Shown here one piece after another: positions 2,930 through 53,501 of a stretch of DNA of 53,501 bases (position 1 is its first letter; every line of letters starts with the position of its first letter). The position numbers were made by a program, and so were the translations under genes. The stretch lies in NCBI GenBank assembly GCA_025056865.1, contig JANWVO010000042.1:1-53501 (forward strand), in the 5' to 3' direction. Under the pieces are notes generated by a model. The model ran no database searches and had not been told where the DNA came from. It was given only the letters and a program-made list of their open reading frames with translations. This DNA is from Bryobacteraceae bacterium (GTDB lineage Bacteria; Acidobacteriota; Terriglobia; Bryobacterales; Bryobacteraceae).

Positions 2930-2951
2930 GCGGCGGCGCTGGCGGAGTCCC

Positions 2952-3437: not shown

Positions 3438-3465
3438 GCGGCGCGATACTGGAAGCGGGGAGCGC

Positions 3466-4383: not shown

Positions 4384-4396
4384 AGGCTGCCGGCGG

Positions 4397-4434
4397 GCAC
4401 GGGGAGGGGCCCGGAAGGGTCCCTTGCCCCGTGC
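4397..4434. terminator. Strong hairpin between convergent genes
   Basis: GCACGGGG pairs perfectly with CCCCGTGC, the stem continues with AGGG/CCCT and GCCC/GGGT, and the loop is GGAA. There is no U-tract, so it may act as a bidirectional or factor-assisted terminator between the DUF1848 gene and the PEP-CTERM gene. A similar hairpin stands at 41813-41842. Confidence 0.55.
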
Positions 4435-4464
4435 TCCGCCTGCGCTTGCGGAAGGATAAAGGAA

Positions 4465-5178
4465 TCAGGCCTTGCGGCGGCGAGCCAGAAGCCCGAGTCC
4501 GATGAGGCCCGCTCCGATGGTGGCGTAGGTAGCCGGTTCGGGCACCGGCTGGTACTCGAACTGGACGAGCGTGAAGTCGGACTGGTTGTTGCAGGCTCCC
4601 GAGCCGCAGGTGCCGGTCAGAGCCGTGAATTGCACTTTCACGATGTCGGAGAGGCTGCCGAACGGATTGTCGATGCGCCAGACGGCTCCGCCGGTGGACG
4701 TCGACAGGGAGAGATTGGTCACCGTGCCAAGTCCGGTCCAGGTGGCCGTGTCCGGGGGCAGCGAGCTATCGTAGGTGTTGGTGAAAGTGTAGTCGGAGTA
4801 GCCCCCGGCCTTGTGCCAGATGCGGATGCGCGCCTTCTCCTGGACGTCGCCGAACTCGGGGCCGTCGAACAGCGCGCCGAGCGTGATGGAGGCCACGCTG
4901 AACGGGACTCCGCCGACCGGGATCTGGCCGGTCAGGAACTCGTTGATATCGATCTCGCCGGCGGTTCCTCCGGAGATGCCGACTCCGGTGAAACCGGCGA
5001 CCGTCTTCTTCTCGAAGTTGCCTGGAGAGGACGACCAGTTCAACCCGCCGATGGTCTGGCTGTTCACGCCGTTGTTGAACTGGCTTCCGTTGATGGTGAT
5101 GACCGTGCCGGCAGCCGGCACGGAGCAGAGGACCGCCATGGCGACCGCAATGGCGGCCAGAAGTTTCCAATTACCCAT
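4465..5178 (-). CDS. PEP-CTERM sorting-domain secreted protein
   Basis: The 237-residue protein has a Sec signal peptide (hydrophobic stretch at about residues 5-22 ending PAAG). Its C-terminal sorting signal at 212-237 has VPEPATYATIG, a short membrane helix and the basic end ARRRKA. PEP-CTERM proteins are processed by an exosortase and delivered to the outer surface, often with exopolysaccharide. No exosortase is in the window. The middle part is a beta-rich, Gly/Ser/Thr-rich domain without a recognised family. AGGAGGAGG stands directly upstream of the ATG. Confidence 0.92.
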   Translation of the reverse strand: MGNWKLLAAIAVAMAVLCSVPAAGTVITINGSQFNNGVNSQTIGGLNWSSSPGNFEKKTVAGFTGVGISGGTAGEIDINEFLTGQIPVGGVPFSVASITLGALFDGPEFGDVQEKARIRIWHKAGGYSDYTFTNTYDSSLPPDTATWTGLGTVTNLSLSTSTGGAVWRIDNPFGSLSDIVKVQFTALTGTCGSGACNNQSDFTLVQFEYQPVPEPATYATIGAGLIGLGLLARRRKA

Positions 5179-5486
5179 TTGATTTCCTCCTCCTGAGATC
5201 CCCGGAGCATCGAGTTTCCAGGAAGTGTTTGCTGGAACCGCCCGGGGGTGCGGAGATGTACGCTCGCCTCCTGCTGCCAGAATCGCCGGGAGGGAGGAAA
5301 TCCGGAATGGTACATTCGGGCTTCTGGTACTGAGCCCGACGCGCTTGGGTAGCAGAACCGCCCATCCCGTTCCGCACAGCCTCCGGGGTGGCGCGACGGG
5401 AGCCGCCGGAGGCGTGCGGCGTGCGCGCAGCTTTCGCCGGGCGGGGGGTTGTATAGGATGGAAGAGGAATTGAAGAGGAATTGACG
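5179..5486. other. Divergent intergenic region
   Basis: This 308-base spacer lies between the leftward PEP-CTERM gene and the rightward GH28 gene. It holds both ribosome binding sites (AGGAGGAGG on the minus strand, AGAGGA at 5474-5479 on the plus strand) and a -10-like TATAGG at 5452-5457 without a good -35. I see no other gene or repeat. Confidence 0.5.
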
Positions 5487-6905
5487 ATGCGAGACTCCCG
5501 AATCCGGCCCACCCGCCGCCGCTTTGCCGCGCTGGCTTCCGCGGCCGCCGCTGCTCCCGTGTGGTTGCGCGCCGGGCAGGCCGCGCCGGAGGCCGGGTGG
5601 GATCGCGCGGCGGGCATCGTGGCGCGGATCCGCGCGCCGCGTTTTCCGGAGCGCGATTTCGATGTGACGAAGTTCGGCGCGCGCGGCGACGGCGCGCGCG
5701 ACTGCACGGAGGCGTTCGCGGCGGCGGTCCGCGCCTGCCATGAGGCGGGCGGCGGCCGCGTGGTGGCGCCGAAGGGCGAGTGGCTGACCGGGCCCATCCA
5801 CCTGCTGTCGCGCGTGAACCTGCATCTGGAAGAGGGCGCGACGTTGCGCTTCTTCCCGGACCCGAAGCGCTACCTGCCGGTGGTGCCCACGCTGTGGGAG
5901 GGGATGGAGTGCCGGAACTATTCGGCGCTGATCTATGCGCTGGACCAGCAGGACATTGCGGTGACGGGCGCGGGCGTGCTGGACGGGCAGGCCGACTGCC
6001 AGCACTGGTGGCCCTGGAAGGGGCGCACCGATTGCGGCTGGTCGAAGGGCGAGCCGCACCAGGGTCCGGCGCGGGAACGGCTGATGAAGATGGTGGAGGC
6101 GGGGACGCCGCCGGCGGAGCGGATCTTCGGCGAGGGCTCGTATCTGCGGCCGAACTTCCTCCAGTTTTTCCGCTGCCGCAACGTGCTGGTGGAGGGCGTG
6201 ACGATCCGCAACTCGCCGATGTGGGAGATCCACCCGGTGCTCTGCGCGAATGTGACGGTGCGCGGCGTGAAGGTGATCTCGCACGGGCCGAACAACGACG
6301 GCTGCGACCCCGAGTGCTCGCGCGACGTGCTGATCGAGGACTGCCTGTTCGACACCGGCGATGACTGCATTGCGATCAAGAGCGGGCGCAACGCCGACGG
6401 GCGGCGGCTGGCGACGCCGAGCGAGAACATCGTCATCCGCAACTGCGTGATGAAAGACGGCCACGGCGGCGTGACCATCGGCAGCGAGATCTCCGGAGGG
6501 GCGCGGCACATCTACGCCGAGCGCTGCCGGATGGACAGCCCGAACCTGGACCGCGTGCTGCGGCTGAAGACGAACGCCATGCGGGGCGGCGTGATCGAGC
6601 ACGTCTCCATGCGCGACATCGAAGTGGGCACCGTGGCCGACGCGCTGCTGCACATCGACTTCTTCTACGAGGAAGGCGCCAACGGGCCGCACCTGCCCAC
6701 CGTGCGGCAGATCGAGATGGAGAACATCCGCTGCCGGCGCACGAAGTACGGCGTCTACATCCGCGGCTTCGAGAAGAGCCCGGTGCGCGACCTCGTGCTG
6801 CGCAACTGGCAGGTGGACGAGGCTCCGGGGGGCAATGTCGTCCAGCACGCCGAAGGCATCCGGGCGGAGAGGCTGCTGTTCGGCGGCAGGCCGGCGGCGC
6901 TGTAA
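5487..6905 (+). CDS. Tat-exported GH28 polygalacturonase-like glycoside hydrolase
   Basis: The 472-residue protein starts with a Tat-type signal (RPTRRRFAALASAAAAAP). The GH28 active-site signatures appear in order: N-x-D at 269-271 (NND), DD at 292-293 in TGDDC, G-H-G at 325-327, and RLK near 350. These residues hydrolyse galacturonide or related pectic bonds with inversion in a right-handed beta-helix. The N-terminal block DVTKFGARGDG is typical of the pectate lyase-like superfamily. ATG at 5487 is preferred over TTG at 5481 because AGAGGA is 7 bases upstream. The exact substrate (polygalacturonan or rhamnogalacturonan) is open. Confidence 0.9.
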   Translation: MRDSRIRPTRRRFAALASAAAAAPVWLRAGQAAPEAGWDRAAGIVARIRAPRFPERDFDVTKFGARGDGARDCTEAFAAAVRACHEAGGGRVVAPKGEWLTGPIHLLSRVNLHLEEGATLRFFPDPKRYLPVVPTLWEGMECRNYSALIYALDQQDIAVTGAGVLDGQADCQHWWPWKGRTDCGWSKGEPHQGPARERLMKMVEAGTPPAERIFGEGSYLRPNFLQFFRCRNVLVEGVTIRNSPMWEIHPVLCANVTVRGVKVISHGPNNDGCDPECSRDVLIEDCLFDTGDDCIAIKSGRNADGRRLATPSENIVIRNCVMKDGHGGVTIGSEISGGARHIYAERCRMDSPNLDRVLRLKTNAMRGGVIEHVSMRDIEVGTVADALLHIDFFYEEGANGPHLPTVRQIEMENIRCRRTKYGVYIRGFEKSPVRDLVLRNWQVDEAPGGNVVQHAEGIRAERLLFGGRPAAL

Positions 6906-8131: not shown

Positions 8132-9007
8132 ATGGAGCACACGCCAGTCCTGTTGCGCGAATCGCTGGAGTATCTGGCGATCCGTGCGGAAGGGGTCTAC
8201 GTGGATGCGACTGCGGGGCTGGGCGGGCACACGGCAGCGATCGCGGAGAGGCTGGGAACGGGGCGCGTGATCGCGCTGGACCGGGACGCCGACTCGCTGG
8301 AGCTGGCGCGGGCGAGGTGTGCGGCGCTGGCGGACAGGATCACGTTCGTGCAGAGTTCGTTTGCCGAGTTTTCGTCGACTCTCGACTCTCTCTCCCTCCC
8401 GCGCGTGGACGGGATATTGGCCGACCTGGGGGTAAGCCGCTATCAGCTCACCTCACCGGAGCGCGGCTTTTCGCTTCAGGCGGCGGGTCCGCTCGACATG
8501 CGCATGGACCGGCGGCAGAGCCTCACCGCTGCCGCCATCGTCAACCACTATCCGGAACGGGAAATCGCCCGGATCCTCGAGGAACTGGGCGAGGAAAGGA
8601 GGCGCCTAGCGGAAAAAATAGCCAGAGCCCTGGTACGGGCGCGGCCGATTGCGGACACGGCGCATCTGGCGCGCGTGGTCGCATCGGCCGTGCCCCGGAC
8701 CGGAAGGCTTCATCCGGCCACGCGGGTTTTCCAGGCGTTGCGGATGGCCGTCAACGACGAGCCGGGGCAGCTGGATGCGCTGCTGGAGCAGGCGCCGTGG
8801 CGGCTGAAGGCCGGGGGCCGCATGGTGGTGATCGCGTTTCAGTCGCTGGACGACCGCAAGGTCAAGCAGCGGTTCCGGGAGCTCGCCCGGGGCGGCGGGT
8901 TCCGCATTCTGACCCGGCACGTGGTCAAGCCCGGCGAGGAGGAAGTCCGGTCCAACCCGGCAAGCCGCAGCGCCGTACTGCGGGCGTTGGAGAGAACAGG
9001 GGAATGA
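8132..9007 (+). CDS. rsmH: 16S rRNA (cytosine1402-N4)-methyltransferase
   Basis: The 291-residue protein begins MEHTPVLLRESLEYL, which is the conserved MraW/RsmH start, and has the SAM-binding motif VDATAGLGGHT near residues 24-34. The segments ADLGVSRYQL and a later FQSLDDRKVKQRF are further family hallmarks. It methylates N4 of C1402 in 16S rRNA to tune the decoding centre. It is the second gene of the dcw operon, between mraZ and ftsL. Confidence 0.96.
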   Translation: MEHTPVLLRESLEYLAIRAEGVYVDATAGLGGHTAAIAERLGTGRVIALDRDADSLELARARCAALADRITFVQSSFAEFSSTLDSLSLPRVDGILADLGVSRYQLTSPERGFSLQAAGPLDMRMDRRQSLTAAAIVNHYPEREIARILEELGEERRRLAEKIARALVRARPIADTAHLARVVASAVPRTGRLHPATRVFQALRMAVNDEPGQLDALLEQAPWRLKAGGRMVVIAFQSLDDRKVKQRFRELARGGGFRILTRHVVKPGEEEVRSNPASRSAVLRALERTGE

Positions 9008-9041
9008 TTCGAGCGGTGGAGATTTCTGGGAGGAACATCGC

Positions 9042-9512
9042 ATGACCGGCCTGGGAGCGTTGCTGGACTGGTTTGCCGCCAGCAAGGAGCTGGCTGCGGC
9101 GGAAGGCCGCCGCGATTTGCAGGATGCCCGCCTCCGCGCGTTGCCGCGGGAGGAGATTTTCCTTTACGTGAAGCCGATCGACAATACGCGCGTGCGGTGC
9201 GTGGAAGCGCGCAGCGAGTGGCTTTCGAGCGCGGTGGCGACGCTGTGCGTGCTGCTGATCGCCGGGAGCTTCATGCTGGCGCTGGCGCCGTCGAGCATCA
9301 TCTGGCTGTGCAATCACCGCATCGAGGAGCTGAAGCAGGAGCGTGCGGCGCTGCTGAACGAGTACCGGGCGTTGCGTGCCGAGGAAGCCGCCCTGCTGAG
9401 CCCGGAGAAGCTGGAGCAGTATGCCGGCGAGCGTTTTGTGAATCCTTCGCCGAAGGACATGGTGTACGCGCCGCCGCCGAAGGCCGACGTGGCGAAGCTG
9501 GGCCGGCGTTAA
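9042..9512 (+). CDS. ftsL: FtsL-like division protein
   Basis: The 156-residue protein has a cytoplasmic N-terminus of about 60 residues, one membrane helix at roughly 61-82 and a following coiled-coil (about 91-125, IEELKQERAALLNEYRALRAE). That topology and its position between rsmH and ftsI fit FtsL, which joins FtsB and FtsQ to activate septal wall synthesis. Sequence identity in this family is low, so the call rests on topology and gene order. The Pro-rich tail is unusual. Confidence 0.75.
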   Translation: MTGLGALLDWFAASKELAAAEGRRDLQDARLRALPREEIFLYVKPIDNTRVRCVEARSEWLSSAVATLCVLLIAGSFMLALAPSSIIWLCNHRIEELKQERAALLNEYRALRAEEAALLSPEKLEQYAGERFVNPSPKDMVYAPPPKADVAKLGRR

Positions 9513-9545
9513 GGCTGCGGCTGGCGGGTCTGCGGACAGGCGTCT

Positions 9546-11669
9546 ATGAGCGCGTGGAAGCGGTGGGCCGGCATCCGGGGCGGGCCGCGGCAGCGCGCCG
9601 GGGGGAGCGGGAAGAGCCGCCCCGGCAGGGCGGCGCGGGGGGGGGACCTGTCGAAGAGCCGCGCCCTGGTGGTGGCGGTGGTGGTGGCGGGCGCAGCCGT
9701 GGTGGTGCTGATCCGGCTGGTTGGCCTGCAAGTCCTTGGGCACGAGCGGTTCGCCGCGCGGGCGCGCAACCAGCATGAGCGGACCGTGCCGGTGCCGGCG
9801 CTGCGGGGCGAGGTGCTGGCCCGCGACTCCTACCCGCTGGCGATCAGCATCCGCACGGAGTCCGCGGTGGTGAATCCCGAAGAGATCCGCGATGTGGAGT
9901 TTTTCGCGCGGGTGGTGGGGCCGGTGGTGGGGCGAAGCGCGGATGAAATCGCCGCGGAGCTGCACCGCCGCAAGACCCAGAAGGGGCGCTCGTGGCGCCA
10001 TTTCGTGCTGGAGCGCCACCTGAGCGAGGAGAAGCGCAACCGCCTGAAGGCGCTCGTGCGGACTTTTCCCGTCCACTTTGTGCCCGACGTGCGGCGCGAG
10101 TACCCTAACGGGCTGACCGGGGCGCACGTGGTGGGGGCGATTGACGCCGAGGGCAACGGCAATGCGGGCATCGAGCAGAAGCTGAACCAGGAGCTGAAAG
10201 GAGAGCCTGGCGAGCTGCGCGTGCATCGGGGAGCGCGGCTCGACAGCTATGCGAGCGCGGTCATCCGGCCGGCGGTGCCCGGGGTGAACGTGACGCTTTC
10301 GATTGACCGCGTGATCCAGTACGACGCGGAGCGCTTCCTGGCCGAAGGGATCCGCGATTCCGGAGCCGAGAGCGGCACGGTGGTGGTGATGGATCCGCGC
10401 AACGGCGAAATTCTGGCGCTGGCCAACCTGCCGACCTTCGATCCGCGGCGCGAGACGCCGACGCGGGAGGAGGCCGCGGCGCGGCACACCAACATTGCCG
10501 TGCAGATCCCCTGCGAGCCGGGCTCGGTGATGAAGATGATCACGGTGACGATGGGCATCGACACCGGGCTGTTCACGCCGGAGACGCTGATTTACTGCGA
10601 GAACGGCGCCTTTGCGCGCCCTGGGCGGCGGCCGATCCACGACGTCCACCGCTACGGCCATCTGGACGTCAGCGGGGTGCTCATCAAGAGCAGCAACATC
10701 GGGGTGGCGAAAATCAGCCTGGCCGCGGGTCCGGCGCGGCTGTATGAGTATCTGAAAAAATTCGGCATTGGCGAGAAAACAGGCATCGAATTACCGGCCG
10801 AATCCCGGGGAATTCTGCGCCCGCAGGCCTGCCGCGACGCGCAGGACCGGAACTGCTGGACGCCGGTGTCGCACGAATACATCGCCTTCGGCCACGAGGT
10901 GAGCGCGACGGCGGTGCAACTGGCGCGCGCGGTGGCGGTGATCGCCAACGGCGGGCTGCTGGTGCGGCCGCATCTGGTGATCCGGAAGACGCGTCCGCTG
11001 CCGGACGGCCGCGAGGAGCCGGTTCCGGTGGAGATCGAACCGCCCAAGCGGGTGCTGCGGCCGGAGACGGCGTTCACGATCCGCCGGATCATGGAGCGGG
11101 TGGTGCTGGAGGGGACGGGAAAAGCGGCCGCCATTCCCGGATATTCGTCGGGCGGAAAGACGGGTTCGGCCGAGATTTTCGAAAACGGCCGCTGGCTGGA
11201 CCGCCACAATGCGTCCTTCATCGGGTTCGCGCCGGTGGCCAACCCGAGGATTGTGGTGGTGGTGACGCTGAACCGGACGCCGAAGCTCGGCGGCGCCTCG
11301 GCGGCGCCGGTGTTCCGCAAGGTGGCCGAGAGCGCGCTGAGGGTGCTTCAGGTGCCGATGGACCGTCCGGAGACGCTGAAGGAGCCGGAGCCGCCGAAAG
11401 AGACGGGGAAGCCGGAGACGCTGCTGGCGCGGAAGGAGCCGGAGCCGCCGGCGGAGCCGGTTCCGGCGCCGACGGCTCCGGTGCTGGTGGGGCCGAAGGT
11501 GCCGGACTTTCGCGGCAAGCCGCTTGCATGGGTGCTGCGGGAGGCGGCGGCGATGGGCATGCCGGTGGAGACGCAGGGGCGGGGGCTGGCCCGCTGGCAG
11601 TTTCCGGCGCCCGGCGCCGTGCTGCCGCCTGGCACGCCGGTGCAGATCCGCTTTGGGGTGGCTCGATGA
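9546..11669 (+). CDS. ftsI: FtsI/PBP-type transpeptidase with C-terminal PASTA domain
   Basis: The 707-residue protein has a single N-terminal membrane anchor (about residues 40-60), a pedestal domain beginning near LRGEVLARD, and a penicillin-binding domain with all three motifs: S327-x-x-K330 (SVMK), S382-S383-N384 and K538-T539-G540. A Pro/Glu-rich linker leads to a PASTA domain in the last 65 residues. It crosslinks septal peptidoglycan. PASTA-tailed division PBPs are familiar from Gram-positive bacteria and also occur in deep Gram-negative lineages. The stop overlaps the murE start (ATGA). A run of eight G at 9638-9645 lies in the 5' part of the frame. Confidence 0.93.
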   Translation: MSAWKRWAGIRGGPRQRAGGSGKSRPGRAARGGDLSKSRALVVAVVVAGAAVVVLIRLVGLQVLGHERFAARARNQHERTVPVPALRGEVLARDSYPLAISIRTESAVVNPEEIRDVEFFARVVGPVVGRSADEIAAELHRRKTQKGRSWRHFVLERHLSEEKRNRLKALVRTFPVHFVPDVRREYPNGLTGAHVVGAIDAEGNGNAGIEQKLNQELKGEPGELRVHRGARLDSYASAVIRPAVPGVNVTLSIDRVIQYDAERFLAEGIRDSGAESGTVVVMDPRNGEILALANLPTFDPRRETPTREEAAARHTNIAVQIPCEPGSVMKMITVTMGIDTGLFTPETLIYCENGAFARPGRRPIHDVHRYGHLDVSGVLIKSSNIGVAKISLAAGPARLYEYLKKFGIGEKTGIELPAESRGILRPQACRDAQDRNCWTPVSHEYIAFGHEVSATAVQLARAVAVIANGGLLVRPHLVIRKTRPLPDGREEPVPVEIEPPKRVLRPETAFTIRRIMERVVLEGTGKAAAIPGYSSGGKTGSAEIFENGRWLDRHNASFIGFAPVANPRIVVVVTLNRTPKLGGASAAPVFRKVAESALRVLQVPMDRPETLKEPEPPKETGKPETLLARKEPEPPAEPVPAPTAPVLVGPKVPDFRGKPLAWVLREAAAMGMPVETQGRGLARWQFPAPGAVLPPGTPVQIRFGVAR

Positions 11670-13162: not shown

Positions 13163-14475
13163 GGATCACCGTGGCAGGCCGGGAATGCACGTCGACGAGC
13201 GTGGACACGCGCACGCTGATGCCGGGCGCCGTGTTCGTGGCGCTGAAAGGCCCCAATCATGACGGCCACGACTATGTGGCGGCGGCGTTCGAGAAGGGCG
13301 CGGCGGCCGCGGTGGTGGAACGGCCCGTGGCTGCGGGCGGACCGCTGGAGATCGTGCCTTCGACGCTTGACTGGCTTCAGCAGAAGGCGGCCGAGGCGCG
13401 CCGGGCGTGGCCGGGCCTCGTGGTGGGCATTACCGGCAGCGCCGGCAAGACGACGACGAAGGAAGCCGTCGCCGCGGTGCTGGCCACGCGGCTGCGCACG
13501 GGCAAGACGCAAGGGAATTACAACAACCACATTGGCGTGCCGCTCACGCTGCTGAACCTGCCGGACGATGCAGAGGCTGCGGCGGTCGAGATCGGCATGA
13601 ACCACGCGGGCGAGATCCGGCATCTGGCGGCGATCGCGCGGCCGCAGATCGGCGTGGTGACCAATGTCGGCACGGCGCACATCGAGAACCTTGGTTCGAT
13701 CGAGGCAATTGCGGCCGCCAAGCGGGAGCTGGTGGAGTCGCTGCCGGAGGACGGCACGGCGGTGCTGAACGGCGACGACGAGCGCGTGCGCGCGATGGCG
13801 GCGGCATTTGCAGGCCGCACGGTTTACTACGGTTCCTCTCTCTTTGTTCCTTCCGAGGCACCCCACGTCCGGGCCTCGAAGGTCGGCTACCTGGCAGAGG
13901 GAGTCGGCTTCGAGATCCCGGACGTGGGATCTTTTTTCTGCCCGCTGCCGGGACGCGCGGGCCTGATGGCGGCGCTGGCGGCACTGGCGGTGGCGCGGGC
14001 GCTCGGCTGGGATCTGAGAGAATTGAGGGAGACGGTGGCCCGCCTCACGACGGTTCCGATGCGGCTGGAGCGGCTGGAGCGGAACGGGGTTGTCATCTGG
14101 AACGACTGTTACAACGCGAGCCCGGAAGCGGTAAGGATGATGCTGGACCTTCTGGCGGAGACGCCGGCGCGCCGCCGCATTGCCGTGCTGGGCGAGATGC
14201 TGGAACTCGGCGAGTGGAGCGAGCGGCTCCACCGGGAGGTGGGCCGGCATGCGGCCCGCCGCGTGGACGTGCTGGCGGGCGTGCGGGGCGCGGCGCGGCA
14301 CCTGGTGGAAGAGGCGGTGGCGGCGGGGCTGCCGCGCGAGTCGGCGGCGTATTTTGACGACCCGCGGGAGGCCGGGCTGTTTGTAAAGGGGCTGGCGCAG
14401 GCCGGAGACGCGGTGCTGTTCAAGGGTTCGCGCGGCGTCCGCGTGGAGCGGGCGCTGGAGGCGTTTCTCGAGTAG
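13159..14475 (+). CDS. murF: UDP-MurNAc-tripeptide D-alanyl-D-alanine ligase
   Basis: The 438-residue protein has the three Mur ligase domains, with an ATP-binding loop ITGSAGKTTTKE near residue 95, the NYNNHIGVPLTLLNL segment and a C-terminal domain beginning near WNDCYNASPEA. It adds the D-Ala-D-Ala dipeptide to complete the cytoplasmic UDP-MurNAc-pentapeptide. Its start overlaps the murE stop by 4 bases and it ends 2 bases before mraY. No ddl gene that would supply the dipeptide is in this cluster. Confidence 0.96.
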   Translation: MRITVAGRECTSTSVDTRTLMPGAVFVALKGPNHDGHDYVAAAFEKGAAAAVVERPVAAGGPLEIVPSTLDWLQQKAAEARRAWPGLVVGITGSAGKTTTKEAVAAVLATRLRTGKTQGNYNNHIGVPLTLLNLPDDAEAAAVEIGMNHAGEIRHLAAIARPQIGVVTNVGTAHIENLGSIEAIAAAKRELVESLPEDGTAVLNGDDERVRAMAAAFAGRTVYYGSSLFVPSEAPHVRASKVGYLAEGVGFEIPDVGSFFCPLPGRAGLMAALAALAVARALGWDLRELRETVARLTTVPMRLERLERNGVVIWNDCYNASPEAVRMMLDLLAETPARRRIAVLGEMLELGEWSERLHREVGRHAARRVDVLAGVRGAARHLVEEAVAAGLPRESAAYFDDPREAGLFVKGLAQAGDAVLFKGSRGVRVERALEAFLE

Positions 14476-14477
14476 GC

Positions 14478-15611
14478 ATGTTTTACTGGCTCTTTTACGA
14501 ACTGCTGTTCCCGCACTTTTCGCCGTTCCGCGTCTTCGGCTACGTGACGTTCCGGACGTTCGCCGCCAGCCTTTTCGCCTTCGCGCTGGTCGTGCTGCTG
14601 GGGCCGTGGTTCATCGGCAAGATGCGCGAACTCGAGATCGGGCAGCCGATCCGCGAGGACGGGCCGGAAACGCACCACCGCAAGGCGGGCACGCCGAGCA
14701 TGGGAGGCCTGCTGATCGTGGCCGGGGCGCTGATCCCATCGCTGCTGTTCACGCATCTGGCCAACCCTTACGTGTGGGTGGCGATGTTCGCGCTGGCCGG
14801 CTACGGGGCCATCGGCTTCGCCGACGACTATCTGAAGGTGCGGCGGGGAAAGAATCTCGGCCTCACCGGGCGGCAGAAGATGGCGATGCAGGTGGCGGTG
14901 ATGCTGGCTGTCGGCGTCTGGCTGCTGGAGCTGCACCGCCGCGGGCTGTACAGCACGGCGATGAACGTGCCGTTCTTCAAGAATCTGAGGCCGGAGCTGC
15001 TGATCGATTCGCTGCTCGGCAATCCGTGGACGTATCCGCTGGCCTTTCTTCCCTTCTTTCTGCTGCTGCTGTTCGTGGTGGTAGGCTCGTCGAACGCGGT
15101 GAATCTGACCGACGGGCTGGACGGGCTGGCGGCCGGGCTGATGATCATCGCGGGGGGCGCGATGACGGTGCTGTGCTACGTCAGCGGCCACGCGCAGTTC
15201 GCGCGGTATCTGGAGATCGCGCGGCTGCCCGGCGCGAGCGAGCTCACGATTTTCTGCGCTTCGCTCACCGGCGCGGTGCTGGGGTTCCTGTGGTACAACG
15301 CGCATCCGGCGGAGATCTTCATGGGCGACGTCGGTTCGCTCGCGCTGGGCGGCAGCCTGGGGGTCGTGGCGGTGCTGATCAAGCAGGAGCTGCTGCTGCT
15401 GTTCATCGGGGGCGTGTACGTGATCGAGGCGCTGAGCGTGATGATCCAGGTGGTGAGCTTCCGGACGCGGGGCAAGCGGGTCTTCCTGATGGCGCCGCTG
15501 CACCACCATTTCGAGCAACTGGGCTGGAACGAGACGAAGGTGGTGGTCCGGTTCTGGATCGCCGGGCTGGTGATGGCGCTGTTTGCGCTCACGACGCTGA
15601 AACTGAGGTAG
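14478..15611 (+). CDS. mraY: Phospho-MurNAc-pentapeptide transferase
   Basis: The 377-residue protein is a polytopic membrane protein with about ten helices. MraY signatures are present: FADDYLK with the double Asp, NAVNLTDGLDGLA, and AEIFMGDVGSLALGG, followed by the HHHFE motif near residue 335. It transfers phospho-MurNAc-pentapeptide to undecaprenyl phosphate to make lipid I. It lies directly between murF and murD with 2-base gaps. Confidence 0.97.
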   Translation: MFYWLFYELLFPHFSPFRVFGYVTFRTFAASLFAFALVVLLGPWFIGKMRELEIGQPIREDGPETHHRKAGTPSMGGLLIVAGALIPSLLFTHLANPYVWVAMFALAGYGAIGFADDYLKVRRGKNLGLTGRQKMAMQVAVMLAVGVWLLELHRRGLYSTAMNVPFFKNLRPELLIDSLLGNPWTYPLAFLPFFLLLLFVVVGSSNAVNLTDGLDGLAAGLMIIAGGAMTVLCYVSGHAQFARYLEIARLPGASELTIFCASLTGAVLGFLWYNAHPAEIFMGDVGSLALGGSLGVVAVLIKQELLLLFIGGVYVIEALSVMIQVVSFRTRGKRVFLMAPLHHHFEQLGWNETKVVVRFWIAGLVMALFALTTLKLR

Positions 15612-15613
15612 CC

Positions 15614-16933
15614 ATGGACGTCCGCGGCAGGCGCATCACCGTGTTTGGCATGAAGGACTCCGGCCTCGCCGTGGCGGAGCTGCTGCGGCGTCACGGGGCG
15701 CTGGTGCGCGCCTCCGACGTCAAGCCCCGCGCCGAGCTGCCGGATTTCGACTTCCCCTTTGTGCCGCAGTCGCCGGAGGCGCTGGAAGACTGCGACGTTG
15801 CGGTGCTCAGCCCCGGCGTGCCGGCGGACCTGCCGATTTTTGAGCAGGCGGCCGCGCGGGGGGTGCTGGTGGTGGGCGACGTGGAGGCGGCCTCCTGGTT
15901 TCTGCAAGGGCCGATCCTCGGCATCACGGGAACCAACGGCAAGACCACGACCACGGCGCTGGCGGGCCATCTGCTGCAAACCGCCGGCATTGCCTGCCAG
16001 GTGGGGGGCAACATCGGCCGGCCGGTGGCGGCGATGGTGGAGGCGTCGCGGCGCGATCAGTGGAACGTGCTCGAGCTTTCCAGCTTCCAACTGGAGACCA
16101 CGCGCACGCTGCGCGTGCGGATTGCGGCGGTGCTGAACATCACGCAGAACCACCTGGACCGGCACCACACGTTCGAGCGCTATGCGGCGGCCAAGGCGCG
16201 CATTCTTGCCTGCCAGCAGCCGGAAGACTTCGCGGTGCTGAATGCGGAGAACGAGGCCAGCGCGGCGCTGGCGGCGCAGGCCCGGGGCCAGGTGCGGTGG
16301 TTCCGCACGGCCGGCCCGAAGCGGCCGGGCTTCTGGATGGAGGAAGGCTGGCTGCTGGCTGACGGCGAGCCGTTCATGCCGGCTTCCGAGATTCCGCTCC
16401 GCGGCCGGCACAACGTGGAGAACGTGCTGGCCGCCGCCTGCTGCGCGCATCTGGCGGGCGCGCCGCTGGAGGCGTTGCGCCGCGGCGTGCGGAGCTTCCG
16501 GGGCGTCGAGCACCGCATCGAGTTCGTGCGCGAGCTGAACGGCGTCGCCTTCTACAACGACTCGAAGGCGACCAGCGTGGACGCGACGCGCAGGGCGCTG
16601 GAGTCCTTCGACACGCCGCTGTGGGTGATCCTGGGAGGCAAGGACAAGGGCAGCGACTACCGCGAGCTGAGGCCGCTGCTGGCGAGCCGCGCCCGCGCAG
16701 TGCTGCTGATTGGCGCCGCGGCGCCCATCATTGCCTCGCATCTGGAAGGCGCCGTGCGGCTGATCCCCTGCGGCGATCTCCGCACGGCAGTGGAAACGGC
16801 ATGGCGCGAGGCGCGCCCCGGAGACACGGTGCTGCTGGCTCCGGCCTGCGCCAGCTTCGACCAGTTCAGCAGCTACGAAGAGCGGGGCCGCTTCTTCAAG
16901 ACCATCGTGCATTCGCTGGAGCCGCGCCCATGA
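15614..16933 (+). CDS. murD: UDP-MurNAc-L-alanine D-glutamate ligase
   Basis: The 439-residue protein starts with an N-terminal Rossmann-like domain (ITVFGMKDSGLAVAELL), followed by the ATP loop GITGTNGKTTTTALA near residue 107, the ELSSFQLE motif and NITQNHLDRH. The C-terminal block FYNDSKATSVDAT is characteristic of MurD. It adds D-Glu to UDP-MurNAc-L-Ala. ATG at 15614 lies 2 bases after mraY; a much longer open frame reaching back to 14606 is only the mraY shadow. It overlaps ftsW by 4 bases. Confidence 0.96.
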   Translation: MDVRGRRITVFGMKDSGLAVAELLRRHGALVRASDVKPRAELPDFDFPFVPQSPEALEDCDVAVLSPGVPADLPIFEQAAARGVLVVGDVEAASWFLQGPILGITGTNGKTTTTALAGHLLQTAGIACQVGGNIGRPVAAMVEASRRDQWNVLELSSFQLETTRTLRVRIAAVLNITQNHLDRHHTFERYAAAKARILACQQPEDFAVLNAENEASAALAAQARGQVRWFRTAGPKRPGFWMEEGWLLADGEPFMPASEIPLRGRHNVENVLAAACCAHLAGAPLEALRRGVRSFRGVEHRIEFVRELNGVAFYNDSKATSVDATRRALESFDTPLWVILGGKDKGSDYRELRPLLASRARAVLLIGAAAPIIASHLEGAVRLIPCGDLRTAVETAWREARPGDTVLLAPACASFDQFSSYEERGRFFKTIVHSLEPRP

Positions 16934-18084
16934 ACACCGTCCGCACGCGCACAGACTGGTGGCTGCTGTGGGCCACGCTGTTCCTGGTCTCCTTCGGCCT
17001 GGTGATGGTCTACAGCGCTTCGGCGGTGTCGGCGGAGGTGTATTACCACAAGAAGAGCTGGGAGTTTGCCGTCCGCCAGCTTGTGGCGGCGCTGATCGGG
17101 CTTCCGCTGATGCTGTGGCTGAAGTACAGCGACTACCGCCGCCTGCGGCACGGCGCCGCGGTATTCGTTCCGCTGGTGCTGGTGCTGCTGCTGCTGGGCG
17201 CGGCCATCGTGCTGGACCCGCGCGCGCACCGGTGGATCCGCGTGCCGGGCATCGGCCAGTTTCAGCCGAGCGAGATGGCCAAGCCGGTGATCGTGGTCTA
17301 CCTGGCGTGGTTCGTGGCCTCGCGCGGCTGGGACATCAGCAGCCGGTTTTCCACGCTGCCGACGGTGCTGGTGCTGGTAGTGATGACAGCGCTGATCGCG
17401 GCAGGCGACCTGGGCACGGCCCTCATTGTGCTGACGCCGGCGCTGGCAGTCTACTTCGTGGCAGGAATCGGCAGGCGCCCTTTCATGGTGGCGCTGCTCT
17501 GCCTGCTGATGCTGGCCGCGGCGTACACGCTGCAACGGTCATACCGGGTGGCGCGCATCACGAAGTTCTTCGGGCTCACGGAAGAGAAGATTCAGCAGAC
17601 CCCGTCGCTGCGATGGCTGGCGGTGCGGATGGCGGCGTCCAACGCGGCGCGGGACGACCGGCACCAGGTGGAGCAGTCGATGATCGCCATTGGCCGCGGC
17701 GGCCTGACCGGCGTCGGGCTGGGCGGCTCGACGCAGAAGCTTGGCTTCCTGCCGGAGGCGCACACGGACTTCATTCTTGGCGTGATCGGCGAGGAGACAG
17801 GGTTTCTTGGATGCGCCGGGCTGCTGGCCGCCTATCTGGTGATTTTCTGGCGCGGGCTGCGCGCGATGCTGCTGCTCGAGGATCCATTCGGCCGGTATCT
17901 GGCGCTGGGGGCGACGACGGTGATCGTGAGCCAGGCGCTGGCCAACATGCTGGTTGCGCTGGACGCAGTGCCGACCAAGGGCATGCCGCTGCCGCTGGTG
18001 AGCTACGGCGGCAGCTCGCTGGTGTGCACGCTGATCACGATGGGCCTGCTGATGAGCGTCTGCGACCGCGCTCCGTCGCGGTGA
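16930..18084 (+). CDS. ftsW: Septal peptidoglycan glycosyltransferase FtsW
   Basis: The 384-residue protein has about ten membrane helices and the SEDS-family signatures LGLVMVYSAS-like block (SFGLVMVYSASA) at the N-terminus, FQPSEMAKP in the middle and GMPLPLVSYGGSS near the C-terminus. SEDS proteins polymerise glycan strands from lipid II and work with a partner transpeptidase, here the FtsI encoded upstream. It overlaps murD by 4 bases and is followed by murG after 10 bases, consistent with one polycistronic message. Confidence 0.96.
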   Translation: MNTVRTRTDWWLLWATLFLVSFGLVMVYSASAVSAEVYYHKKSWEFAVRQLVAALIGLPLMLWLKYSDYRRLRHGAAVFVPLVLVLLLLGAAIVLDPRAHRWIRVPGIGQFQPSEMAKPVIVVYLAWFVASRGWDISSRFSTLPTVLVLVVMTALIAAGDLGTALIVLTPALAVYFVAGIGRRPFMVALLCLLMLAAAYTLQRSYRVARITKFFGLTEEKIQQTPSLRWLAVRMAASNAARDDRHQVEQSMIAIGRGGLTGVGLGGSTQKLGFLPEAHTDFILGVIGEETGFLGCAGLLAAYLVIFWRGLRAMLLLEDPFGRYLALGATTVIVSQALANMLVALDAVPTKGMPLPLVSYGGSSLVCTLITMGLLMSVCDRAPSR

Positions 18085-18094
18085 GGAGGCAGCG

Positions 18095-19198
18095 GTGCTG
18101 TTCATCATGGCGGGCGGCGGAACGGGCGGGCATGTGGTGCCGTTGCTGGCCGTGGCCGCCGAGCTGCGCGCCATGGGCCATGCCTGCCTTTTTGTCGGCA
18201 CGCGGCACGGCATCGAGAACCGTCTGGTGCCGCAGGCGGGCTTTCCGCTGGAATGGATCGAGGCATGGGGCTTCCAGAGGATGGGGCTTGCCGGGAGGCT
18301 GCGGGCACTGGCGTCGCTGCCGCCGGCCGTGTGGCGGTGCCTGCGGCTGATGCGCCGGGCGCGCCCGGCAGGGCTGTTTTCGATGGGCGGCTATGCCGCC
18401 GCCGCGCCCATGCTGGCTGCCGCGGCGGCGGGGGTGCCGATGGTGCTGATGGAGCCGAACGCGATGCCGGGGCTGGTGAACCGGCGGCTGGCCCGGTTCG
18501 CGGCGCGGGCGCTGGTGAGCTTCGAAGAGGCGCTGCGGTGGTTTCCGCCCGGCCGGGCCGAGCTGTGCGGTTTGCCGGTGCGGCCGGCGTTTTTCGACAT
18601 CCGCTGGCAGCCGCCGCAGGACACGCTGCGGATCCTGGTGGTGGGCGGCAGCCGCGGCTCCCGCGCGCTGAACCGGGCGGTCGCGGAGAGCCTGCCACTG
18701 TTCCGCTCCGCGCCGTTCCGGGCCGAAATCACATGGCAGGCGGGCGCGGCGGAGGCGGAGGCGCGGGAGCGCGAACTGGCCGCATCCGGCGTGCCGGGGC
18801 GCGTTGACGCCTTTCTGGACGACATGCCGGCGGCCTATGCGCGGGCGCACCTGGTGGTGAGCCGCGCGGGCGCCGGGGCGGTGGCCGAGCTGGCGGCCGC
18901 GGGGATGCCGTCGATTCTCGTGCCGTTCCCCTACGCGGCCGACAACCACCAATTCCACAACGCCGACGCGATGCGCCGGGCCGGGGCGGCGGTGCTTCTG
19001 GAGGAAGCGCGGCTGAGCGGGCAGGCGCTGTATGAAGAGGCGGCGCGGCTGGCCGGCAGTCCCGGAGAGCTGGAGCGGATGAGCCGCGCGGCGCGCTCGC
19101 TGGCGCGGCCGGGCGCGGCCCGGCGCGCGGCCGAGGCGCTGGCCGGAGCAGCCCGCAGGCGCGCGGAGGCTTCGTTGACAGGCGGGCGCAGGCCCTGA
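18095..19198 (+). CDS. murG: Lipid II synthase (GlcNAc transferase) MurG
   Basis: The 367-residue GT28 protein has the N-terminal GGGTGGHVVPLLAVA loop and the C-terminal nucleotide-sugar region SRAGAGAVAELAAAGMPSILVPFP. MurG transfers GlcNAc from UDP-GlcNAc to lipid I on the cytoplasmic membrane face. The start codon is GTG at 18095, preceded by GAGGAGG. It is placed between ftsW and murC as in many dcw clusters. Confidence 0.95.
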   Translation: MLFIMAGGGTGGHVVPLLAVAAELRAMGHACLFVGTRHGIENRLVPQAGFPLEWIEAWGFQRMGLAGRLRALASLPPAVWRCLRLMRRARPAGLFSMGGYAAAAPMLAAAAAGVPMVLMEPNAMPGLVNRRLARFAARALVSFEEALRWFPPGRAELCGLPVRPAFFDIRWQPPQDTLRILVVGGSRGSRALNRAVAESLPLFRSAPFRAEITWQAGAAEAEARERELAASGVPGRVDAFLDDMPAAYARAHLVVSRAGAGAVAELAAAGMPSILVPFPYAADNHQFHNADAMRRAGAAVLLEEARLSGQALYEEAARLAGSPGELERMSRAARSLARPGAARRAAEALAGAARRRAEASLTGGRRP

Positions 19199-19214
19199 AC
19201 AATAAAGAGGCGGA

Positions 19215-20627
19215 ATGTTTTTTCGGCCCCAGCCCCTGCATTTCACCGGCATTGGCGGCATCGGCATGAGCGGCCTGGCGCTGCTGTGCCGCGCGCTTGG
19301 CTGCGAGGTGTCGGGCTCGGACCTGCGCGCGACGCCGCTGACGGCGCGGCTGGCCGCGCTCGGCATCCGCGTCATGCAGGGCCACGCGGCGGAAAACGTG
19401 CCTCCGGAGGCGCGCGCGGTGGTTGTGACCTCAGCGGTGCGCGAGGACAATCCGGAGGTTCAGGAGGCGCGCCGCCGCGGGCTGCCGTTGGCCACGCGGG
19501 GCGAGCTGCTGGCGGAGCTGATGCGTCCGGCGCGGGGCGTGGCAGTGGCCGGCAGCCACGGCAAGACGACAACGGCGTCGATGCTGGCCCGCGCGGCGAT
19601 GCACGCGGGGCTTGATCCCACCGTGTACGTGGGCACGCTGGTTCCGTTCCTGGACGGCTGGAACGCGCGGCTGGGCGGGCCGGTCTTCATCGCGGAGACG
19701 GACGAAAGCGATGGCAGCTTTCTGGAGCTCGCGCCCGAGTGCGCCGTGATCACGAACATCGACCGGGAGCATCTCGACTACTGGAAGACATTCGAGGCGG
19801 CGCGGGGCGCGTTCCTGCGCTTTGCCAACCGCGTCTCGCTGTCCGGCGTGGTGGCGCTGTGCGCCGACGATCCGCCCGCGCGGGGGCTGCTGGAAGCGGG
19901 GCTGCGCCGCCGGGCGGTGACCTACGGGCAGCACGCCGAGGCGCGGCTGCGGATCGAGGATCTTCGCCTAGAGGCGGGGGGCAGCCGCTTCCGGCTGCGG
20001 ATGGACGGGACGCCGCTCGGCGGGTTTGCGCTGCGCGTCCCGGGCGCGCACAACGTTCTGAATGCCGCTGCCTGCGCGGCGATCCTGCTGCACCTTGGGG
20101 TGGAAGCCGACCGCGTGCGCGCCGGGCTGGCCGCCTATGAAGGCGCCGGCCGGCGGATGGAGTGGAAGGGAACGGCGGCGGGCGTCGAGGTGATTGACGA
20201 TTACGGGCACCACCCGGCCGAGATCCGCGCCACGCTGGCAGCGCTGCGGCTGCGCAGGCCGCGGCGGCTGGTGGTGCTGTTTCAGCCGCACCGGTACTCG
20301 CGCACGCAGCTACTGTTCGACGAATTCACCAGCGCCTTTGGGGATGCGGACCTGGTCTACGTCACCGACATTTACGCCGCCTCGGAGGCGCCGCTGGAGG
20401 GCGTCACCGGCGAGGCGCTGGCGAAGGCGATCGCCGCGGCCGGCCACGGCGGCTGCCGCTACGCGGGCAGCCTGGCCGAGGCGGTCCGGCTCGTTGCGGG
20501 CGAGCTGCGCGAAGGCGACCTGCTGGTGACGCTGGGCGCAGGCGACGTGACGACAGCAGGGCCGGCAGTGCTTGAAATCCTCCGGGAGGCCAGCCATGGC
20601 TCGCAGGAAAGCGAAGGAAACGCCTGA
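19215..20627 (+). CDS. murC: UDP-MurNAc L-alanine ligase
   Basis: The 470-residue protein begins with HFTGIGGIGMSGLA, the MurC-specific UDP-binding loop, and has the ATP loop VAGSHGKTTTASML near residue 113. YGHHPAEIRATL and FQPHRYSRT are further MurC hallmarks. It adds the first amino acid, L-Ala, to UDP-MurNAc. The 3' end overlaps ftsQ by 32 bases. No murB frame follows or is fused, which differs from clusters with murC-murB. Confidence 0.96.
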   Translation: MFFRPQPLHFTGIGGIGMSGLALLCRALGCEVSGSDLRATPLTARLAALGIRVMQGHAAENVPPEARAVVVTSAVREDNPEVQEARRRGLPLATRGELLAELMRPARGVAVAGSHGKTTTASMLARAAMHAGLDPTVYVGTLVPFLDGWNARLGGPVFIAETDESDGSFLELAPECAVITNIDREHLDYWKTFEAARGAFLRFANRVSLSGVVALCADDPPARGLLEAGLRRRAVTYGQHAEARLRIEDLRLEAGGSRFRLRMDGTPLGGFALRVPGAHNVLNAAACAAILLHLGVEADRVRAGLAAYEGAGRRMEWKGTAAGVEVIDDYGHHPAEIRATLAALRLRRPRRLVVLFQPHRYSRTQLLFDEFTSAFGDADLVYVTDIYAASEAPLEGVTGEALAKAIAAAGHGGCRYAGSLAEAVRLVAGELREGDLLVTLGAGDVTTAGPAVLEILREASHGSQESEGNA

Positions 20628-50476: not shown

Positions 50477-50553
50477 GCGCCCGTAGCTCAGCTGGATAGA
50501 GCGACTGGCTACGAACCAGTAGGTCGGGTGTTCGAATCACTCCGGGCGCACCA
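50477..50553 (+). tRNA. tRNA-Arg (ACG)
   Basis: Acceptor GCGCCCG pairs with CGGGCGC, followed by A and encoded CCA. The D stem is GCTC/GAGC, the anticodon stem ACTGG/CCAGT encloses CTACGAA (anticodon ACG), and the T loop is TTCGAAT. A T-rich run follows at 50555-50566. It stands at the border between core genes and the CRISPR-linked right edge; tRNA 3' ends are frequent integration sites. Confidence 0.97.
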
Positions 50554-50973: not shown

Positions 50974-52347
50974 ATGAATCCGCAAGACCTGCCGGCTTCC
51001 GCCGCCGCACTCCGAGAGCTGGCCGGCCAGCTTTGGCAAAAGCAGGCATGGGCCGAGGCACTGCCGCTGCATGAGGCGCTGTGCCGCCTGCCGGAGGCCA
51101 CCGGCTGGGATTTTTACCGCCTCGCCAGAATCCTTTCGAAACTGGAACAGCACGAGGCCGCCCTCGAAGCCTGCCGGGCTGCGTGGCAGCGGTTCCCTGG
51201 CGAGCGGCCCGAGGGGTTGCGGAACCTTTATGGGTGGAGCATCTACCGCACCGAGCTGCGCCCGCTGGCCTCGGGCCGGCCTGAAGACGGCGAAGAGGCG
51301 GAGTCCGCGGCAGCCGGGCCGGGGGCGGACGGAAGGCTTGTGCGGGCGATCCGGGCGGCGGAAGCGGTGTGCCAGCTCACCCGGCAGGAGCCGTACTCTC
51401 CTTACACGCGCACCGTGCTGGCGCTGGCGAAGATGCTGCGCCGGCAGGCACGGTGGCAGGAGCTGGAGCAGTGGACGGCGAGGCTGGACCCGGCCCGGCT
51501 GTCGCCGCAGCCGTGGCGGTCCGGCGGCGAGCGGGAGATGGCCTCCGAGCTGGAAACGTGGTACGGCTACCGGACCCGGGCGCTGCTTGGAATGGAACGC
51601 TGGGAGGAATGCGCCGGGCTGTGCCTCCGCTACGAGCAGCAGGGCCTGAAGCCGCACTACGACTGGGACGTCTGGATCCCCTTCTACCGCGCGCAGGCGC
51701 TCCATGCGCTGGGCCGTCTGGAGGAGGCCGCCGAACTCACCGGCCGGCTCCTGGCGAAGAAGCGGGCCGCCTGCCTGCTCCGCTTTCGGGCGCGCCTGTA
51801 CCGGGAATGCGGCCAGCCGGAGCGCGCCTGGCAGACGGCGCTGGACGGCGCGCTGGAGTTGCAGGAGCCGAAAAACGACCCGCAACTGCTGGTCCTGCTG
51901 GCCGAGCTCGCCGCAGGGCGCGGCGACCTGGAGGCGGCGCGGCGCCACGTGGAGCTGGCCGCCGTGGCGCGGCTGGCCGAGGACTGGAAGATCCCGGAGG
52001 CGTTGCGGCAGCAGGCCGCCGCGCTGGGCGCCACGTTTCCGGAGCGCGCTTCGGAGGCCGACAGCAGCAGGCTGTTCCGCGAGCTGCGCTCGTGGTGGTG
52101 GGCGGCGCTGGAGGCGGCGGAGCCCCGGGACAGCGGCACGGTGGAGAGGGTCCTGGCGGGCGGGTCGGGATTCCTGCGCAGCGACGGCGGCCAGACGCTC
52201 TACTTCCGGGACGGCAGGCTCCGGGACCTGGCGCCCGGCCTTCGGGTCAGCTTCTGGGTGCGCCCGAGCTGGGACGCGAAAAAGCAGCGCGTCTCGTCCT
52301 GCGCCATCCGCCTGCGGAGCGGCGCAGGCGGGCGGGCGCAGCGCTGA
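50974..52347 (+). CDS. TPR protein with C-terminal cold-shock/S1-like OB domain, beside cas1
   Basis: The 457-residue protein has no signal peptide or membrane segment. Residues of about 8-340 form helical TPR-like pairs (for example WAEALPLHEALCRLP and RLEEAAELTGRLLAKK). Residues 388-448 match the cold-shock/S1 OB pattern: GTVERVLAGGSGFLRS, a central LYF strand, LAPGLRVSFWV, and a closing RVSSCAIRLR. A TPR scaffold joined to a nucleic-acid-binding OB fold is thus predicted. AGGAGG lies 12 bases before the ATG. cas1 follows on the same strand after 154 bases without an evident terminator. The architecture recalls TPR-S1/CSD proteins of TOTE-type conflict systems (from memory, unverified). Function unknown. 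Confidence 0.82.
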   Translation: MNPQDLPASAAALRELAGQLWQKQAWAEALPLHEALCRLPEATGWDFYRLARILSKLEQHEAALEACRAAWQRFPGERPEGLRNLYGWSIYRTELRPLASGRPEDGEEAESAAAGPGADGRLVRAIRAAEAVCQLTRQEPYSPYTRTVLALAKMLRRQARWQELEQWTARLDPARLSPQPWRSGGEREMASELETWYGYRTRALLGMERWEECAGLCLRYEQQGLKPHYDWDVWIPFYRAQALHALGRLEEAAELTGRLLAKKRAACLLRFRARLYRECGQPERAWQTALDGALELQEPKNDPQLLVLLAELAAGRGDLEAARRHVELAAVARLAEDWKIPEALRQQAAALGATFPERASEADSSRLFRELRSWWWAALEAAEPRDSGTVERVLAGGSGFLRSDGGQTLYFRDGRLRDLAPGLRVSFWVRPSWDAKKQRVSSCAIRLRSGAGGRAQR

Positions 52348-52501
52348 GGCGGCGGCGCCGGGCCCATGAAGCGAACCGGGCCGGGCGGAGCGGCGCCCGG
52401 TGGGGAGGCGGCCCGCCCCTCGGGCATCGGCGCGGTCTGCGGAGGCCGAGATGGAACAGCGGAGCCGGGAGTCCGGAAAGGGAGTCCGCAAGGAGGATGC
52501 A

Positions 52502-53501
52502 ATGGCGGTCACCACGGTTTTCGTGTGTCAGCCGGGCGCGGTGCTGGCGCGGCGCAGCCGGCGTCTGGTGGTGCAGGCAGACGGCGGGGAGCTGGTGGAA
52601 ATCCCGGTGCGGGAGACGGCCGCGGTGGCCCTGTTCGGCCCGGTGCAGGTGACGGCGCAGGCGCTGGCGCTGCTGTTCCGGCACCGCGTTCCCCTGGCCT
52701 TTTTTTCCCGGCAGGGCCGCCTGCGGGGGCGGCTGGCTCCGGCGCTGTCCAGCCATGCCGGGCTGCGGCTGGAGCAGTACCGCGCGGCCGGGGAGGCCGC
52801 ATGCTGCCTGCGGCTGGCGCGGCCGCTGGTCGAGGCCAAGCTTGCCAACAGCGCGCGGCTGCTGGCCGCCTACCGCAGGAACTACCCCGGGGAAGCGCTG
52901 GCTGCGGCGCAGCAGAGGCTTGCGGGGCTGGCCCGGCAGGCGCGCGAGGCCGCCTCGCTGGCAGAGCTGCTGGGGTGCGAAGGGGCGGGCGCGGCGGTCT
53001 ATTTCAACGCCGTCGCCGCGCTCAACCGCAGCGGCCTGGCCTTCGCGGGGCGCCGCATGCACCCGCCGCCGGATCCCTTCAATGCGCTGCTGAGCCTCGG
53101 CTACACGCTGGCGCTGACCGAGCTGCTGGGGCTGGCCGAGGCGCGCGGGCTGGATCCGTACGTCGGCTTCCTGCACCGCACGGGCTACGGGCGGCCTTCG
53201 CTGGCGCTGGATCTAGTGGAGCCGTTCCGGCCGGCGCTGGTGGACCGGCTGACGCTGCGGCTGGTCAATGAACGGATCCTCACTGCCGCCGACTTCCAGG
53301 CGCGGACGCCGGCGGGCGGGCGTCCTTCGGTCGTGCTGAAGCCGGAGGCGCTGCGCCGTTATCTGGAGCATTACGCCCACGCGGTGGCGCGGCCGCGCCG
53401 GCCCGGGGGCGTCAGCCTGCGCGAGGAGATGGCCCGGCAGGTGGACCGGCTGGCCCGGGCCCTGATGAGCGGCGGCGAATGGACCGCCTTTGTGGAGCAT
53501 T
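52502..53501 (+). CDS. cas1: CRISPR-associated integrase Cas1, truncated by the window end
   Basis: The frame is open from ATG 52502 to the last base, giving 333 residues without a stop. N-terminal beta-domain motifs (PGAVLARRSRRLVVQ, VALFGPVQVTAQAL, PLAFFSRQGRLRGRL) and the helical core are typical. The metal-binding triad is E160 (GCEGAGAAVYF), H225 (GFLHRTGYGRPSLALDL) and E240 (LVEPFRP). Cas1 with Cas2 inserts new spacers into CRISPR arrays. AAGGAGG lies 5 bases upstream of the start. The N-terminus is not fused to a reverse transcriptase or Cas4. The CRISPR type cannot be told without the genes to the right. Confidence 0.95.
   Translation, partial: MAVTTVFVCQPGAVLARRSRRLVVQADGGELVEIPVRETAAVALFGPVQVTAQALALLFRHRVPLAFFSRQGRLRGRLAPALSSHAGLRLEQYRAAGEAACCLRLARPLVEAKLANSARLLAAYRRNYPGEALAAAQQRLAGLARQAREAASLAELLGCEGAGAAVYFNAVAALNRSGLAFAGRRMHPPPDPFNALLSLGYTLALTELLGLAEARGLDPYVGFLHRTGYGRPSLALDLVEPFRPALVDRLTLRLVNERILTAADFQARTPAGGRPSVVLKPEALRRYLEHYAHAVARPRRPGGVSLREEMARQVDRLARALMSGGEWTAFVEH

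Follow-up and report, generated by a model that had tools for sequence, protein, structure and literature searches.

A TPR-OB gene beside cas1 in a Bryobacteraceae CRISPR locus: a divergent member of a catalogued family and a possible accessory of spacer capture

The TPR-OB gene and the CRISPR locus around it

The window analysed here spans all 53,501 bases of contig C26, one of the 61 contigs of a 4.18 Mb genome (G000), and a tRNA-Arg, a TPR-OB gene and cas1 lie at its right-hand end (Table 1). The initial annotation had placed the two protein genes on one strand, 154 bp apart and just past the tRNA-Arg, and open reading frames and profile matches confirm this arrangement. The TPR-OB reading frame is intact, and the GC3 values of the two genes, the only ones compared, are similar (0.889 for TPR-OB and 0.895 for cas1). 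The cas1 start is an ATG with AAGGAGG ahead of it, and the gene is without a stop codon because the contig ends. A scan of the gap between the two genes revealed no promoter-like or terminator-like site, the gap leaves no room for a reverse transcriptase gene, and no helicase or nuclease gene was seen between the tRNA-Arg and cas1.

Table 1 Features of the TPR-OB/cas1 locus at the end of contig C26.
Feature	Position	Strand	Basis or remark
tRNA-Arg (ACG)	50477..50553	+	ARAGORN; left edge of the locus; also in sister genome G004 (L072:8150-8074)
TPR-OB gene, 457 aa	50974..52347	+	ORF; PDLC01170, 1.5e-29; AlphaFold2 pLDDT 87.9
Part coding for the OB/cold-shock-like domain, residues 385-449	52126..52320	+	
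TPR-OB/cas1 gap, 154 bp, 77% GC	52348..52501	+	
cas1, 333 codons, open to the contig end	52502..53501	+	PF01867, 3.8e-81

The TPR-OB protein matches the PADLOC profile PDLC01170, named 'TPR repeats containing protein fused to cold shock-like domain (OB-fold)', over residues 126-448 (positions 63-366 of the 368 in the profile), and Pfam DUF7017 at 4.1e-8. The PDC-M16 profile M16B also matches it weakly (1.5e-4). Structure prediction of the C-terminal part had been proposed at the outset, and the AlphaFold2 model places a cold-shock-type OB barrel there (residues ~385-449), behind a TPR solenoid (residues ~10-382). Strands are predicted at residues 385-449, cold-shock domains head the VIA list of structural matches, and and complexes of cold-shock domains with RNA are among the top structural matches. 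Foldseek by itself gave no match for the OB part at E <= 0.001. Two further sets of matches were set aside, namely the general TPR proteins returned by Foldseek for the whole model and the PDB sequence matches of the TPR part, which were mostly designed TPR/PPR repeats. By its profile match and its predicted two-domain build, the protein is a member of the PDLC01170 family. It is a divergent one, because its score (101.5 or 90.9 bits) is far below that of a helicase-linked Bacteroidota homologue, L048 (349.8 bits). The gene had been proposed as undescribed, a claim that does not hold since PADLOC already has this family profile. Moreover, the family was probably catalogued earlier as CRISPR-linked, because the PADLOC numbers around PDLC01170 include PDLC01185 ('Cas1, diverged variant, second in the loci'), PDLC01168 ('CARF, 2 TMs') and PDLC01148 ('RecD_like').

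In the cas1 product, Glu160, His225 and Glu240, which we take to be the catalytic residues, have identical counterparts in alignments with two Cas1 proteins of solved structure (7mi4 and 7cr6). The genome has three cas2 matches: two lie on contig C12, and the third is truncated at the edge of contig C23. From that edge inwards, C23 has the remainder of cas2, its stop, about 220 bp, a repeat array and then cas6 on the opposite strand. The array has seven copies of a 37-nt repeat (six according to the repeat finder), of which the final two differ at 5 and 11 positions, and spacers of 37-40 nt. C26 and C23 are taken as adjacent because the sister genome G004 has the matching parts in the same order on one contig; this is a placement by synteny, with a short unread gap between the contigs and their letters left unjoined. 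On this placement, the locus would run TPR-OB, cas1, cas2, array, cas6 over the two contigs. Extending the locus past the contig end, as had been recommended, thus yields a cas2 remainder, a short array and cas6, and the locus can be classed as a CRISPR adaptation locus by its cas1 with conserved acidic and histidine residues, the cas2 beside it and the repeat array. Elsewhere in the genome, a search for a second array with the same repeat gave short partial matches only. No exact match to 24-base stretches of three leader-proximal spacers was found in viral contigs, and no spacer target of the array was found in the phage collection, both uninformative results.

A second locus, on C12, encodes Cas10a (Csm1 type), Cas6, a CARF-HEPN protein, Cas1 and Cas2, and we infer that this type III locus may supply the effector for the window locus. 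In this C12 region (L030, G000:C12:70000-89999, 8916-11405), a full cas1 is accompanied by a second, diverged Cas1-family gene (PDLC01185) and two cas2 matches.

Sister genomes differ at this site. Within ~8 kb of one contig, G004 has the tRNA-Arg, an N-terminal remnant of cas1 (108 aa, 69% identical), a cas6 broken across three frames and an fhs flank matching that of C23. Neither TPR-OB nor, with up to 9 mismatches allowed, the repeat of the window locus was found in G004. Since G004 keeps a broken cas1 and cas6 without TPR-OB, the latter was either dispensable or a late arrival. The decayed copy of the CRISPR locus occupies 3519-8150 of L072 (G004:C1:972100-992000). In G001, long runs of different CRISPR-like repeats lie past the same fhs flank (L071, G001:C1:3391700-3411600, about 13400-19900), and these were recognised as repeated peptides in frames on both strands.

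Relatives in Acidobacteriota and Bacteroidota

TPR-OB genes are rare. A PDLC01170 search of the window genome and 40 relatives (41 genomes) gave one match, the window gene itself, and five matches, window included, were obtained at 1e-6 in 396 Acidobacteriota genomes. Profile A1, searched in 41 genomes of the class of G086, recovered the same four genomes. Among 14 control genomes, PDLC01170 gave one match at 1e-3 (Sulfolobus acidocaldarius) and none at 1e-6. A single-protein search of genome contigs found no close relatives of the window gene, three different TPR-OB queries found no match in plasmids by tblastn, and queries A1 and A2 found none in viral contigs. The sole match in the phage collection is MT837669.1 (L106), an unverified, unannotated faecal scaffold labelled Bacteriophage sp., in which, at 1449-6179, TPR-OB is followed by a 1216-aa UvrD-like gene, near an integrase-like ORF; the UvrD-like gene and the integrase-like ORF were recognised by eye. 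This scaffold is possibly bacterial or mobile-element DNA and was excluded from the homologue counts.

All five Acidobacteriota TPR-OB genes lie in CRISPR loci (396 genomes, window included), L035 being assigned by two repeat copies only. These copies stand at the contig end, 273 bp from the TPR-OB start codon, and nothing more of that locus is visible. L036 has Csx1-like and Card1-like genes and a cas6 fragment with TPR-OB before its contig ends. L037 contains cas10, a CARF-HEPN gene, CAPP, cas1, cas2 (recognised by eye from its frame), a convergent TPR-OB gene and four repeats, with TPR-OB between cas2 and the array. In L038, two repeats at the contig end are followed by TPR-OB and a CARF-HEPN-CARF gene, with cas2, cas1 and CAPP on the other strand. 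Because gene order differs among L036, L037 and L038, the linkage of TPR-OB to CRISPR outlives rearrangement. The pair cas1-cas2 lies within 5 kb of TPR-OB in all three loci that can be judged (window, L037 and L038), the other two of the five being too short. The initial annotation had suggested that a recurrent neighbourhood with cas genes would support a functional link; such a neighbourhood is indeed seen, down to a CAPP gene in two of the three judgeable loci. The four cases outside the window belong to one family (f8) and four genera, representing few independent events, so that the counts overstate independence.

In the phylum of G436, a Cytophagales MAG, PDLC01170 matched at least seven genes in at least six of 395 genomes at 1e-8, with up to four candidates per genome scored. 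Only one of the seven Bacteroidota genes found is CRISPR-linked (L059, with a 30-repeat array, cas6 and a CARF-HEPN gene near TPR-OB), and tblastn with the queries used here found no cas1 or cas2 in the 20 kb of that locus. In L035, L037, L038 and L059, roughly 270-300 bp separate TPR-OB from the closest CRISPR repeat. Just ahead of the L059 array (G502:C124, 5878-6718) are two near-identical blocks (95-97%), ~450 bp apart, possibly a duplicated leader or an insertion. The initial annotation had named homologues that are rarely near cas genes as evidence against its proposal, and this pattern is seen in the Bacteroidota (1/7 near CRISPR genes) but not in the Acidobacteriota (5/5 in CRISPR loci).

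A RecD-like helicase, M16A, is part of the gene string with TPR-OB in five of the seven Bacteroidota cases (L048, L058, L059, L061 and L062). TPR-OB overlaps the M16A gene in L058, L059 and L061, follows the helicase closely in L062 (4.4 kb only, left out of the repeat scan) and is one gene away from it in L048. The overlaps with the preceding M16A gene measure 4-8 bp (L058 9472-9479, L059 10697-10700, L061 10979-10985), pointing to coupled translation of the two genes where TPR-OB is linked to a helicase. The remaining two genes, both in G738 (L057 and L060), stand alone, with neither a CRISPR link nor M16A. At 1e-10, M16A was found in five of the six Bacteroidota TPR-OB genomes and was not found in the window genome (all 11 candidates scored) or in the four other Acidobacteriota TPR-OB genomes.

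A tree of 12 proteins unites the four f8 proteins with support, places L059 with L058, which is helicase-linked, and leaves the window protein on a long branch of unsupported position. Given the supported branches, the CRISPR label must change twice, and a gain plus a loss would also account for this. By score, the closest homologue of the window protein is L048 (166-167 bits), from a helicase-linked locus, ahead of L059 (97 bits) and the four CRISPR-linked f8 proteins (58-89 bits).

With up to three candidates per genome scored, PDLC01101 (PrimPol) matched at least 52 of the 396 Acidobacteriota genomes at 1e-10, at least 12 of them above 200 bits. Strong CAPP matches occur in three of the four other TPR-OB genomes against 12 of 396 overall (8.5e-5, with kinship ignored and all four genomes in one family), and they are missing from G043 and the window genome. 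Because nine of the 12 strong-CAPP genomes have no TPR-OB match, and G043 and the window genome have no strong CAPP, neither gene needs the other. In the window genome, PF22548 gave no match and no candidates, and PDLC01101 no match among the three of 48 candidates that were scored. Each of the four f8 TPR-OB proteins has an acidic stretch capped by a terminal RLDL or LLDV; the tips in the three CAPP genomes read ...DDDFRLDL, ...DDDPLLDV and ...EDDSESRLDL, and the window protein has no such tip. The acidic C-terminal tip of SSB resembles these ends. The idea that the tip strictly tracks CAPP was dropped, since the L036 protein, from a genome without a CAPP match, still ends in RLDL and has four acidic residues in its last 15.

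A possible role in spacer capture

Single-strand binding is frequent among cold-shock/OB domains, RNA is a common ligand of cold-shock domains, and TPR solenoids are protein-binding modules. How single-stranded fragments, RNA-derived ones among them, are brought to Cas1-Cas2 is a general question for many type III-linked systems. We propose, with a probability of roughly 45%, that TPR-OB is a single-strand-binding adaptor or accessory of the CRISPR adaptation locus, with a hand-over role in spacer capture. The modelled domain anatomy, the locus itself and the recurrence of the linkage are the observations behind this proposal, from which nucleic-acid binding, docking to Cas1-Cas2 and the step in adaptation would follow. 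The cold-shock OB domain would bind single-stranded nucleic acid and the TPR solenoid would dock partner proteins, in the relatives likely either a helicase (RecD-like or UvrD-like) or Cas1-Cas2 together with CAPP. In the window genome, where no CAPP or M16A helicase was found, TPR-OB would instead hold or shield a single-stranded prespacer (DNA or RNA-derived) for Cas1-Cas2. The window arrangement is a reduced variant, because neither CAPP nor the M16A helicase was found in the genome. The homologues linked to helicases point to work at sites of single-strand formation, and a hand-over role is favoured because of these homologues and of the precedents in PMC8211822, which reports binding of MpCAPP to MpCas1 and of DbCas1 to a RecD-like helicase.

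The distribution of partners is best read, from gene content, as TPR-OB being shared with helicase-based defence while its partners may have been exchanged (M16A beside 5/7 Bacteroidota genes and in 0/5 Acidobacteriota genomes). A more elaborate and rather unlikely version is that TPR-OB is a dedicated SSB analogue for spacer capture, recruited from helicase defence, perhaps repeatedly; the acidic f8 tip would then recruit the primase-polymerase, and the window would have a stripped form in which TPR-OB feeds Cas1-Cas2 with neither CAPP nor a RecD-like helicase, its tip lost or never acquired.

The same helicase links raise the alternative that TPR-OB in the window acts alone in defence or has degenerated, as the remnant of a PDC-M16/TALON helicase pair in a defence island, and does not work with Cas1. 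We regard this as doubtful, though likelier than the two alternatives below: homologues adjoin helicases (including, by eye, the UvrD-like gene of L106) or stand alone, the window protein is nearest to L048, and defence genes cluster in general, whereas all five Acidobacteriota copies accompany CRISPR genes or repeats in genomes where M16A was not found, the linkage is seen in four f8 genera, and the window gene is intact, on the cas1 strand and similar to cas1 in GC3. The proximity of cas1-cas2 in 3/3 judgeable loci argues against TPR-OB binding pre-crRNA or target RNA and working with Cas6 or type III interference or signalling genes rather than in adaptation, and in this genome the Cas10 and CARF genes were seen on C12, with their own cas6, cas1 and cas2. 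Such a transcript-side role is unlikely, even though it would suit the RNA-binding habit of cold-shock domains and the CSD-RNA complexes among the structural matches, and even though cas6 occurs in the window/C23 locus, L036 and L059, CARF genes in L036, L037, L038 and L059, and Cas10 in L037, with the array rather than cas1 standing closest to TPR-OB among the CRISPR elements of L035 and L059.

Finally, the neighbourhood could be due to chance at a tRNA-adjacent insertion hot spot, given the tRNA-Arg beside the locus, the variation among sister genomes (a decayed copy in G004, different arrays after the same fhs flank in G001) and the exact window gene order, which was not found in any other searched genome. 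If about 3% of a genome is assumed to lie near CRISPR genes, however, the linkage of all four other Acidobacteriota copies has a probability of ~8e-7, and that of five of 11 homologues over both phyla ~1e-5, figures that kinship makes too small; we consider chance very improbable. If an adaptor is indeed common to helicase-based defence and CRISPR adaptation, it would provide a concrete protein to test, and one nucleic-acid-binding part would be reused with different partner enzymes. With a protein of ~450 aa and a locus this short, assays of binding and spacer uptake are simple to set up.

Comparison with known systems

A literature search returned no paper recognisable as dealing with a separate TPR-OB gene beside cas1, within a scope that excluded a 2018 neighbourhood survey and a 2022 TOTE review. 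Such a gene is not named in the available portions of PMC8211822, PMC12458937, PMC10910872, PMC12669027, PMC11090510, PMC10415136, PMC5513706, PMC4158269 or PMC7159879. A term search of the accessible text of PMC6967390 gave no relevant passage, and in PMC12669027 the legends of figures on type III refer to TPR.

The window protein shares with PDLC01170 the profile match and, in its model, the two-domain build, and differs in its divergence, with a score far under that of L048. With the CAPP adaptation loci of PMC8211822, the window shares the cas1-cas2-array core, and TPR-OB stands beside CAPP-cas1-cas2 in L037 and L038, whereas CAPP was not found in the window genome. In the sections available, PMC8211822 deals with TPR fused to the primase and does not name a separate TPR-OB protein. 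The accessible part of PMC12458937 spells out TOTE as TPR, OB, TBP, Effector and describes TPR-cold-shock (TPR-CSD) proteins in TOTE/TALON conflict systems. The window protein likewise joins TPR and OB modules, the latter of cold-shock type, but it sits with cas1, and no helicase or nuclease gene accompanies it in that interval. The link to CAPP or TOTE suggested in the initial annotation is sound at the family level, where the CAPPs of L037 and L038 both match Pfam AEP-TOTE, and not for this genome, where CAPP was not found. PDC-M16, a PADLOC candidate that pairs the RecD-like helicase M16A with M16B, resembles the present case through the weak M16B match and the three Bacteroidota homologues that overlap M16A; unlike PDC-M16 and TALON, the window genome lacks a detectable M16A partner. 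What emerges is a better-resolved view of a family already catalogued, not a new kind of system.
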